Virus record (IMG/VR): IMGVR_UViG_3300008448_000506
Location: 1-26,998 of that record
Length of the DNA stretch: 26,998 bases
DNA from: a virus
Reading direction: 5' to 3' (one strand)
The position numbers were made by a program, and so were the translations under genes. The notes beneath the pieces were generated by a model, which was not told where the DNA came from, searched no databases, and saw nothing but the letters and a program-made list of their open reading frames with translations. Shown here one piece after another: positions 1-7,503 of the stretch; positions within the stretch are counted from its first letter, which is position 1, and each line of letters starts with the position of its first letter.

Positions 1-303
1 TAATTTAACACTCATTATTGAACCATCGAAGATATATTTATCAACCAAGAAAGCTAATAGTATAGCACCCATATAGAAAAATGTCTTAACGACTATGTTG
101 AATAATTTATTAGAACGGAATGATTTAACACCATTGACCTTTACGGTCCAATAGATAGCTAAAGCTGTATCTGATACAACGAATAATCCGATGATAATAA
201 TGAAGGCTTGAATCGGTGCAAGTATGGTTAGAAGGCTTATTCCTAAAGCCAAGATGTATTCTTTCATAAGTAAGTTATTTCTTAATAAAACAGTTTTTTC
301 CAT
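1..303 (-). CDS. Putative holin, C-terminus cut by window edge
   Basis: The reading frame opens with ATG at 303 and stays open to base 1, giving at least 101 residues; the C-terminus lies outside the window. The protein has a short charged N-terminus, a strongly hydrophobic stretch at about residues 17-45, a basic loop (around KSFRSNK) and a second hydrophobic stretch at about residues 70-88. This layout, with a polar residue after the first segment and a basic linker, resembles the toxin-secretion/phage-lysis holin family. A holin would form lesions in the inner membrane so that the cytoplasmic endolysin encoded at 22691-23152 can escape. The holin call rests on membrane topology and loose family resemblance only. 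It lies far from the other lysis genes, which is uncommon. It could be another small phage membrane protein. Confidence 0.5.
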   Translation of the reverse strand, partial: MEKTVLLRNNLLMKEYILALGISLLTILAPIQAFIIIIGLFVVSDTALAIYWTVKVNGVKSFRSNKLFNIVVKTFFYMGAILLAFLVDKYIFDGSIMSVKL

Positions 304-315
304 TGATGTTAGATA

Positions 316-435
316 TTATTTGTTGATTATTTGTCTTAGTATTTCCATAAAAGTTAAAGGTCTAACCATATCAACTTCAGAATCAATTTGTTCTAATTTT
401 CTTGAAGCCCATTCTATTCCTTCGTCTCCACCCCA
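316..435 (-). pseudogene. Orphan duplicate of the C-terminus of the 918-1427 gene
   Basis: Read on the minus strand from 435 to the TAA at 316-318, this stretch encodes about 39 residues beginning WGGDEGIEWASRKL and ending LRQIINK. It matches the last 36 residues of the protein at 918-1427, which begin WGGDEGIAWAQKKL and end LREIIKKK; I count about 23 identical positions. It has no start codon of its own, and an in-frame stop lies one codon upstream. The homology begins at CTGGGG, exactly the codons where the 918-1427 copy enters its WGGDEG motif. Its first bases overlap the last seven codons of the endonuclease gene, which reads them in another frame. The simplest reading is a host-gene 3' end displaced when the endonuclease element inserted. 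Confidence 0.8.
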
Positions 436-905
436 GATTTAAGTTTTTGTTTAATCCTATGTATAGTACCATTTGAACAACCTATAGATTTTTTGATTTT
501 ATTTTCAGAGAAACCTTTAAGTATAAGTTCAATTATTTGTGATTCATAATCATCCCATTTAGATTTACCTTTATTGTTGGATTTTCTACCTTTCATTTTA
601 TTTTTAGCTTCTTCAGTATGTTTTAAACCTAAACCACCAGTACCACCATCAGTTAAATTACACAAAGTACCAGTTTTTAAATCTTTTCTACCATATAGTA
701 AAATAAATTCTTTTTCTTTTTCTTCAGCTATTTCTCTAGTTAAACCATCTAAAACGATTTCAGCTTCCCAATCTGTAACATTTACAATATGATTCCAATA
801 TCTGTTTCTACTAAATTTAGATTTAAACCTATCTTTAGTTCCAATACCAATATAGAAAACTTCATTGTTATCTAATCTAATATGTCTATATAAATAATAT
901 TCCAT
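414..905 (-). CDS. GIY-YIG homing endonuclease
   Basis: This 163-residue protein has an N-terminal GIY-YIG nuclease fold: YLY at 4-6 in place of GIY, YIG at 18-20, Arg26, a conserved acidic position at Glu64/Glu66 and Asn83 in CNLTDGGTGG. A NUMOD3-like DNA-binding motif follows at about 92-108 (GLKHTEEAKNKMKGRK). A helix-turn-helix-like segment occupies about 120-157 (ELILKGFSENKIKKSIGCSN). Such enzymes nick or cut a conserved site in phage genomes lacking the element and spread by repair. It lies 12 bases after the stop of the 918-1427 gene. Its last seven codons are out-of-frame sequence of the orphan C-terminal copy at 316-435, so its 3' end was created by the insertion. There is too little non-coding sequence around it for a group I intron, so I read it as a free-standing homing gene. 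Confidence 0.85.
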   Translation of the reverse strand: MEYYLYRHIRLDNNEVFYIGIGTKDRFKSKFSRNRYWNHIVNVTDWEAEIVLDGLTREIAEEKEKEFILLYGRKDLKTGTLCNLTDGGTGGLGLKHTEEAKNKMKGRKSNNKGKSKWDDYESQIIELILKGFSENKIKKSIGCSNGTIHRIKQKLKSGVETKE

Positions 906-917
906 CGTACAAATATA

Positions 918-1427
918 CTATTTCTTTTTAATTATTTCACGTAATCTTTCGATAAAGGTTAAATTGGTTTCACCGTCAATCTCTTTTAATTTTTTCTGAG
1001 CCCAAGCAATTCCTTCGTCCCCTCCCCAGCTGTACCACATAAGACGACCACAACCGTCACCTAGTTTTTTATCTGAGTATTGTCTATGTCTTTCAAAAGC
1101 TGACATTCTAGCAATGGTATCTCTTGATATTGGTTCTTTGTTGGCTAATTGGTTTGCTCTTGCTTTTCCAACTGGTGTACCACAAGAACCCCATCCATTT
1201 TCATCAGCCCAACGCAACGCAATCTTTGCGTTTTCTGATGCTGCTTCTGGATAATCAGTATATGATTCTTGAAGGTTATATTCACCGATAGCGGCAGCTT
1301 GTGCCAATGCTTTTTTCTTAGCATATTCATAACTTCTAGTTGAATCACATATATAAAAATACTCGTGACCTTGGTCACCCCATTTTATAAAACATTGTCC
1401 TTGTTTTTTTCCTGTTTTTAGTGGCAT
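918..1427 (-). CDS. Conserved phage protein with WGGDxG domain; homing target
   Basis: The frame is open further upstream, but I choose ATG at 1427, two bases after the preceding stop (1430-1432), giving 169 residues starting MPLKTGKKQG. From about residue 75 it carries a domain I recognise from many phages and prophages, often near or fused to head proteins. Its landmarks are WGSCGTPVGKARANQLAN, SRDTIARMSAFERHRQ, and a C-terminal GCGRLMWYSWGGDEGIAWA. Its biochemical role is not known to me. The N-terminal part resembles the short MPLKxGK leader often attached to this domain. The last 36 residues may be a replacement brought in by the neighbouring endonuclease, since a second diverged copy of the same 3' end lies beyond that gene. 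Confidence 0.75.
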   Translation of the reverse strand: MPLKTGKKQGQCFIKWGDQGHEYFYICDSTRSYEYAKKKALAQAAAIGEYNLQESYTDYPEAASENAKIALRWADENGWGSCGTPVGKARANQLANKEPISRDTIARMSAFERHRQYSDKKLGDGCGRLMWYSWGGDEGIAWAQKKLKEIDGETNLTFIERLREIIKKK

Positions 1428-6075: not shown

Positions 6076-7503
6076 TTAGTTATTAAAAGTTCTTCCTACT
6101 CCTGGTAACTGTGCAGTCACGTCTGGATTATTATCATAGAATACGTCTAAAGCTAGCTCAAGGACCTTGGCCACTTTAGCCTCATTAGAACCTGTAGCGT
6201 AAATTCTAGATTCAGCTATTCCATTTGCTGCTGCATATTCTTTCAAAGCTGAATCATCTGAACGTGCAGAGATTAAATATACATCATTGTTATCAGCAAT
6301 TTCTTTTGCTACCCATTCTTTACCTTTTGCAGTATTAGCTGTTTCATCGAAGTCAAAACCAATTTTCATACCAGCCATTCTAATAGCTTTCATTTGAGTT
6401 GGTTGTGCTTCAGCTGGAGTTTGTACTCTTAATTCTTCGTAATCAACAAAAGCAATTTCAACACTTGGGTCATTTAATTTTAATGCTTGTTCAATACCTT
6501 TGGTAATGATTTTTCTCATTGGATTTATTTGACTTCTATAAAGTATTTTCAATGCTTGAACTTGTTGGTCAGCAGCACTAGAGAAACCTGTTGGTGTTGG
6601 AAGACCAAACAACCCTGGGTCATTTACTTTGTGAGCCATCATTATCTTCTCTCTAGCAGACTTTTCTAAAGTTTCGAACTGTTGGTACGCATCAGTGATT
6701 TCAATTGAATCTACAGTCGTTTTTGAATCTGGGTTATCATTGAAACTAATAATTGGTGTACCAGCATTTGATGTACCAGCCAAGTTACGAGTAATAGCAT
6801 TTATTTGAGCTTCCATAGCTTCATCGGTCCAATCTTTACCTTGATAGATATTAACGATTTTTCCAGCACTAAAATTGTTTTGAATATGTGAGATATAGTA
6901 ATTACTTAATGCTTCTTCTAACTGGCTATATTGAAGCCCAGAAACCCAGTCGGGAAGTGCAAAGAGTGGTTGTGGTGATTGACGTTTGATACATAGTATT
7001 TCAGTCTCGTTGTTAACACCATATCCGAATGCTGGGATTTTATAAGGTTTGAATGTAGTTTTGTTTTTCCAATCGAATGAATACCAGTAACCTTCAATGT
7101 CATCAGATAAATCAGCTTGTTTTTCAATAGCGATTGATTTAGTTGGAACATAAACAAGTTTAGCTGTTCTTTTTTCTTTTGAATAACCATAGATTACTTG
7201 GAAATAACCTTGTCCTTGGATTTTAAAATCTGAAACAAAGTTTCTAAGGTCTTCTTCAGATAAGATTGATTTCAAATCAACGTTACCAGCAATAACCTCA
7301 AGGCCATCTGCTATCACATAGTTCACTACATTGTCAATAATACATTGTGTAGTAGGTGAACCGATATAACATCTTTCAACGTAGTAAAAGAAATCATTAT
7401 CAACACCATTTGTAACATATTTATTTGTTTGTTTAACTAACGTATGTGGATTTGGTCTTACATAGTTATTTAAGTTTATTGGTAATTGTTTTACTTTAAG
7501 CAT
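6076..7503 (-). CDS. Portal protein with C-terminal HAD-like phosphatase domain
   Basis: This encodes 475 residues. Residues 1 to about 365 form a phage portal: DNVVNYVIADGLEV in the N-terminal wing, GYFQVIYGYSKE, LYRSQINPMRKIITKGIEQA near the end of the core, and a helical stem around 270-295. The portal is the dodecameric ring through which DNA is packaged. After a linker (PAEAQPTQ), residues 379-475 show all four HAD-superfamily motifs: FDFDET (Asp384, Asp386, Thr388), VYLISARS (Ser412), Lys443 or Lys446 in SNEAKVAKV, and VFYDNNPD (Asp457, Asp461). The frame is uninterrupted. Portal C-termini usually face the capsid interior, so the extra domain may be enclosed with the genome; a nucleotide- or DNA-end phosphatase role is speculation. 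Confidence 0.85.
   Translation of the reverse strand: MLKVKQLPINLNNYVRPNPHTLVKQTNKYVTNGVDNDFFYYVERCYIGSPTTQCIIDNVVNYVIADGLEVIAGNVDLKSILSEEDLRNFVSDFKIQGQGYFQVIYGYSKEKRTAKLVYVPTKSIAIEKQADLSDDIEGYWYSFDWKNKTTFKPYKIPAFGYGVNNETEILCIKRQSPQPLFALPDWVSGLQYSQLEEALSNYYISHIQNNFSAGKIVNIYQGKDWTDEAMEAQINAITRNLAGTSNAGTPIISFNDNPDSKTTVDSIEITDAYQQFETLEKSAREKIMMAHKVNDPGLFGLPTPTGFSSAADQQVQALKILYRSQINPMRKIITKGIEQALKLNDPSVEIAFVDYEELRVQTPAEAQPTQMKAIRMAGMKIGFDFDETANTAKGKEWVAKEIADNNDVYLISARSDDSALKEYAAANGIAESRIYATGSNEAKVAKVLELALDVFYDNNPDVTAQLPGVGRTFNN

Follow-up and report, generated by a model that had tools for sequence, protein, structure and literature searches.

Why does a gene in this viral genome carry its 3' end twice, once in use and once more behind an endonuclease gene? 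The window, that is, the whole stretch of DNA that was analysed, comprises 26,998 bp and is an entire IMG/VR virus record, possibly itself a genome fragment. An earlier reading of the letters alone, referred to below as the original prediction, had proposed that a foreign 3' end and an endonuclease gene entered a host gene as one mobile unit and left the native 3' end behind. With high confidence, the window is identified here as the site of a phage homing element that replaces the 3' end of its host gene in the manner of the WHO elements of yeasts. The features related to the element all lie on the minus strand and are as follows.

1..303, minus: next gene, in a holin-like position; starts 12 nt past the orphan stop and extends beyond the window; neighbour conserved in locus L093
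316..436, minus: orphan, the putative displaced native 3' end, WGGDEGIEWASRKLEQIDSEVDMVRPLTFMEILRQIINK-stop; 39 codons plus stop
414-416, minus: endonuclease stop codon TAG, likewise supplied by the displaced copy
417..437, minus: last seven endonuclease codons, SGVETKE, an out-of-frame reading of the displaced copy
414..905, minus: endonuclease gene, 163 aa; start 12 nt past the host stop codon
437..1029, minus: putative mobile unit, 593 bp; substitute host-gene 3' end plus endonuclease gene
918..1029, minus: substitute 3' end in current use, WGGDEGIAWAQKKLKEIDGETNLTFIERLREIIKKK-stop; putatively foreign
1030-1427, minus: 5' part of the host gene; putatively native
918..1427, minus: host (target) gene, 169 aa, putatively chimeric; PHROG 2859

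A duplicated gene end with an endonuclease between the copies

The host product contains an N-terminal WGDQG domain of about 50 aa, an ANQLAN/WGGDEG module and a basic tail. The WGGDEG module is also fused to longer proteins, such as an XkdF-type prohead protease in locus L020. The orphan duplicates the final 36 codons of the host gene, does not open with a start codon and is immediately preceded by an in-frame stop. A tblastn search of an 81-locus database found the orphan and the host-gene C-terminus to be identical at 23 of 39 columns (59%, E = 6e-11). At the DNA level, a repeat search aligned positions 376-441 with 969-1034 (74% over 66 nt, spacing 593) and 314-358 with 919-963 (76% over 45 nt, spacing 605), the shift in spacing being due to a net 12-nt indel within the copies. 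The predicted duplication was thus confirmed, with 74-76% DNA identity in register, and so was its predicted start at CTGGGG, which heads the copies at 1029-1024 and 436-431. A stop-anchored scan for duplicate 3' ends was run over 81 endonuclease loci, with about 2,000 mismatched pairings as the null; the window scored 44, a value equalled or passed by only 0.05% of these pairings, which excludes chance as the origin of the repeat. The boundaries of the mobile unit were drawn from the repeat register and the junction sequences, and a matching geometry was found in two further genes, X and Y, described below.

The gene between the copies was shown to have the catalytic residues of the GIY-YIG type (Y6, YIG 18-20, R26, E64 and N83), and Y6, Y18, G20, R26, E64 and N83 are invariant across 53 family sequences. 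The protein matches PHROG 314, 'homing endonuclease' (E 2e-11), in agreement with the predicted homing endonuclease. A Pfam search with it gave no significant GIY-YIG match; among its relatives, PF01541 was matched by 3 of 53 and NUMOD3 by 33 of 53, and the homing-specific motifs NUMOD1 and NUMOD3 are common. The predicted structure (pLDDT 87) comprises an N-terminal alpha/beta domain and a C-terminal TrpR/HTH-like helical domain. The best Foldseek match of the N-terminal domain in the PDB was the PD-T4-3 nuclease, a GIY-YIG enzyme, although this match is weak (prob 1.00, E 0.0099). Searching PDB sequences with a profile of the endonuclease yielded no useful match. The seven out-of-frame codons with which the gene had been said to end were found as SGVETKE, followed by TAG.

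Which of the two 3' ends is native? Over about 16 aligned residues, 44 distinct homologous WGGDEG 3' ends were compared with both copies; 36 were found to be nearer to the orphan and five nearer to the upstream copy, with three ties. Among these five is the end in L020 (15/16 residues versus 12/16), the only other WGGDEG 3' end with this endonuclease family directly behind it. The L020 endonuclease is 55% identical to that of the window and starts 2 nt past the stop. This locus and the count of 36 fit a history in which the orphan would be the native end and the upstream 3' end would have arrived with the endonuclease. This assignment of native and foreign ends in the window is inferred from some 16 aligned residues and by analogy with X and Y.

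Several candidate relatives were considered as empty sites. Collection scans found no close endonuclease-free relative of this phage, the nearest syntenic locus being L093, the sole syntenic relative that is free of the endonuclease. In this locus, the neighbour gene is 64% identical, but the comparison is not decisive: identity in the target gene reaches only about 50%, the module is of another subtype, and the tail does not discriminate between the copies. L124 has only the N-terminal domain in common with the host gene, and Muminvirus phages have the downstream gene in common but lack the target gene. Neither the host gene nor its N-terminal domain gave a match in scans of genome collections, a scan with the upstream neighbour (1433-1813) gave no relatives, and searches of phage collections gave distant or partial matches only.

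The loci with the nearest endonuclease relatives, L020 and L082, were both found to contain no orphan. In L082 (2904-4477), an endonuclease 75% identical to that of the window lies behind a different C-terminal module (HAD-like, FDFDDTL), so that the gene ends preceding closely related endonucleases differ. Elsewhere in the window, a portal-like protein (6076-7503) ends in a HAD-like FDFDETANT module, which is also present in L082 and is joined to a WGDQG domain in L124. Modules of this type seem to shuffle among phage genes.

Occupied and empty sites in genes X and Y

Locus L203 emerged from a six-frame scan in which 87 related endonuclease loci were screened for duplicated flanks; its target is a 134-aa HNH-like gene, here called X. 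This gene is present in 80 viral loci, 17 of which have an endonuclease of one of four types (A-D) shortly past the X stop, 21-47 nt past the start of the stop codon. An orphan 3' end of 12-19 codons plus stop was found in 14 of the 17 occupied loci, often directly behind the endonuclease, with 51-74% identity to its own upstream copy. In several X loci, the displaced end supplies the endonuclease stop codon with its opening bases (TTT[TGA]TGC, AAA[TAA]TCC), an economy also seen in the window.

The two parts of X have different relatives. When the last 51 nt of X are compared across 14 distinct occupied loci, 13 have their closest match in another locus with the same type of endonuclease; for the 5' part, this is true of none of the 14. 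L199 and L201 are 56-75% identical across most of X, and their identity jumps from 35-75% to about 100% over the final ~100 nt of the gene and the endonuclease. The reverse pattern is seen in L203 and L205, in which a 5' part of 92-100% identity is followed by a differing 3' end and endonuclease, and then by shared sequence again. Four pairs of occupied and empty loci (L225/L268, L235/L241, L199/L279 and L272/L222) fix the right insertion edge to a few nucleotides. In L225/L268, the 5' part of X is 100% identical, as are the orphan and the downstream sequence; the other three pairs resemble it. In L235/L241, the insert is clean, because the left-hand identity ends exactly where the identity of the orphan starts in the empty gene.

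Some X loci contain further reading frames. L203 (1845-2144) and L205 (3069-3353), which are close relatives with different endonucleases, each have a small ORF (MEEILDV...) between endonuclease and orphan. It is likely to be cargo or the remnant of an earlier insertion, as repeated homing predicts. A different ORF (MTKEFVPYEL...) separates endonuclease A from the orphan in L199 (3072-3500) and L212, with a similar one in L201, and is possibly further cargo.

Gene Y encodes 67 aa. In its four carriers, L128, L285, L286 and L287, the gene ends in KVKSNITFGRHIEK-stop or nearly so; the endonuclease ATG overlaps the Y stop in three of them, and a displaced Y end follows the endonuclease in all four. 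Among the carriers, the substitute 3' ends share 85-100% identity, and the 5' parts are nearest to endonuclease-free relatives. The L128 orphan differs at 1 of 54 nt (98% identity) from the endonuclease-free locus L311, in which the matching DNA forms the genuine 3' end of Y (DIIVKPNITFKRYGNN), overlapping the ATG of the next gene. In both X and Y, therefore, DNA that is an orphan in carriers is the real gene end in endonuclease-free relatives, with identity of up to 98-100%.

On these sequences, 3'-end replacement in X and Y is close to certain: the layout, the boundaries, the swapped 3' ends moving with particular endonucleases and the empty sites are all demonstrated at the level of sequence comparison. 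It had been expected that relatives of the window without the endonuclease would have 3' ends closer to the orphan than to the upstream copy. In the window itself this expectation could be followed only through weakly comparable loci (L093 at about 50%, and the 36 of 44 ends nearer to the orphan), whereas in X and Y it was borne out decisively. The 593-bp unit of foreign 3' end and endonuclease, with the native end left behind, is in turn supported by the repeat register, by the majority of homologous ends and by the X and Y geometry, and the unit in the window appears to have been inserted as one piece.

Two other loci have related but distinct arrangements. In L184 (4801-6348), a 61-codon 5' fragment (MIIFIPESHQY...) precedes a related endonuclease, behind which lies a gene whose 5' end is homologous to the fragment; judged by this order, L184 could be a mirror-image element that replaces 5' ends. 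In L183 (2231-4895), one gene (MKVEGKQYCD...) is present twice at full length, as diverged copies on either side of a related endonuclease and a small ORF.

Competing explanations and the proposed homing route

A similar layout might arise if the 3' end of the gene had been partially duplicated in tandem and an ordinary intergenic endonuclease had then been inserted between the copies. The copies are indeed paralogous and adjacent, and an empty site was not found for this lineage, but the explanation is improbable. The window copies have a dN of 0.22 and a dS of 1.09 (dN/dS ~0.2; Nei-Gojobori, 36 codon columns, a small sample), indicative of divergence mostly under protein-level selection. Such a low ratio at a dS of about 1.1 is hard to attain in an untranslated duplicate, and it is therefore a poor fit to a recent tandem duplicate decaying in place. 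Tandem copies in relatives lacking the endonuclease were the pattern that the original prediction had named as speaking for simple duplication; a second copy was seen in none of the endonuclease-free loci of X or of the WGGDEG family. Moreover, the 3' ends of X and Y move between genomes together with the endonuclease.

Alternatively, the endonuclease may be an ordinary free-standing gene that inserted between genes and converted a long flank, the orphan being a by-product of imprecise repair. Free-standing endonucleases of the T4 type do cut conserved genes beside their own gene and convert the flanks (PMC2988022). By itself, however, co-conversion leaves no second copy, and 14 of 17 occupied X loci, like all four Y loci, have an orphan; it starts at nearly one codon behind different endonuclease types and often provides the endonuclease stop codon. 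This account is more doubtful still than tandem duplication. The notion of a group I intron or an intein, with the two 3' ends as exon pieces, has next to no likelihood and is refuted as it stands: a homing endonuclease does interrupt coding sequence here, but an Rfam search across the window gave no match, the upstream copy runs intact to a stop codon of its own ahead of the endonuclease, and in X and Y the endonuclease likewise forms a separate ORF past the stop of the target gene, in keeping with the predicted invasion of coding sequence by neither route.

For the 3'-end-replacing element, the following route is proposed. In a phage without the element, the endonuclease would cut the native 3' end of the host gene. 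Repair from a carrier would then bring in the unit, that is, a diverged yet functional 3' end and the endonuclease gene. The repair arms would be the 5' part of the gene on the left and, on the right, the displaced end of the carrier, which matches the native end of the recipient. The resulting host gene would be a chimera of its own 5' part and an imported 3' end, still made and presumably resistant to cleavage. The recipient's own 3' end would be moved behind the endonuclease as a new orphan, no longer translated. The orphan is thus probably more than debris: it would mark the insertion point and serve as the right-hand homology arm for the next round of homing. The divergence of the two copies would protect the carrier from cutting its own DNA and the unit from being lost when direct repeats recombine. 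Such a route would explain why the orphan is retained, matches empty relatives and starts at nearly one codon even though several endonuclease types precede it, and why the copies are diverged in every case; co-conversion during repair would explain why some pairs have a left X boundary that is indistinct over tens of nucleotides.

There is also good, if somewhat lesser, confidence that these elements form a widespread and previously unrecognised phage class, with three or more unrelated target genes and no fewer than five distinguishable endonuclease groups, four of them competing at one site in X, that drives the evolution of chimeric gene ends; the window would be an older member. The mechanism accounts for 3' ends of phage genes whose history differs from that of the remainder of the gene. 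Such chimeras should not be taken for ordinary recombination, nor orphans for pseudogenes. As the X and Y loci are natural pairs of occupied and empty sites, the target site, resistance and homing are directly testable.

Comparison with known systems

What distinguishes these elements from other mobile endonucleases? In the parts of the sources consulted, T4-type Seg and Mob endonucleases (PMC2988022) and phage endonucleases at exchange boundaries (PMC10448857) are likewise free-standing GIY-YIG or HNH genes beside or within phage genes that drive genetic exchange; those parts describe intergenic insertion, introns or the splitting of host genes, and no substitute plus displaced 3' end. A phage case of 3'-end replacement with this layout was found nowhere in the literature searched, which covered subscription papers poorly, in line with the original prediction, which knew of none.

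An engineered home-and-rescue drive is described as targeting and rescuing an essential gene by homing (PMC7968924), analogous to an endonuclease with a substitute gene end. That drive is a synthetic CRISPR system in insects, whereas the phage elements are natural, and those of X and Y are in principle its natural counterparts.

In fungal mitochondria, mobile ORFs with a foreign C-terminus have been described for Allomyces atp6 and for Glomus atp6, atp9, cox2 and nad3 (PMC3630166). As in the phages, a foreign C-terminal end and an endonuclease displace the native end, which is kept downstream and matches that of relatives. The fungal cases concern organelle genes and mostly LAGLIDADG endonucleases, with GIY-YIG in atp9 (PMC3630166), whereas the phage cases concern double-stranded DNA phages. 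The original prediction was right in naming fungal mitochondria for this strategy; the strategy is not confined to them, because yeast nuclear WHO elements do likewise (PMC7282813). The present elements extend to bacterial viruses this third lifestyle of endonucleases in coding sequence, neither intron nor intein, previously known from yeast nuclear and fungal mitochondrial genes.

The closest parallel is provided by WHO elements at FBA1 in Torulaspora and Lachancea yeasts, in which the 3' end is replaced at each integration and allele-specific cleavage was shown experimentally (PMC7282813). The WHO unit consists of a 3' end that confers resistance and an endonuclease (PMC7282813). Both systems have an endonuclease behind a full-length host gene and a host 3' fragment behind the endonuclease, and in both the host gene is chimeric with discordant 5' and 3' histories (PMC7282813), clearly so here in X and Y. 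WHO elements reside at a yeast nuclear gene and have an intein-derived zinc-finger endonuclease (PMC7282813), whereas the phage elements have GIY-YIG-type endonucleases and several unrelated targets, and are known from sequence alone. In place of intein-like and zinc-finger domains, GIY-YIG-type residues with NUMOD and HTH domains were found. Overall, the phage endonucleases match WHO elements in working principle, but not in descent.
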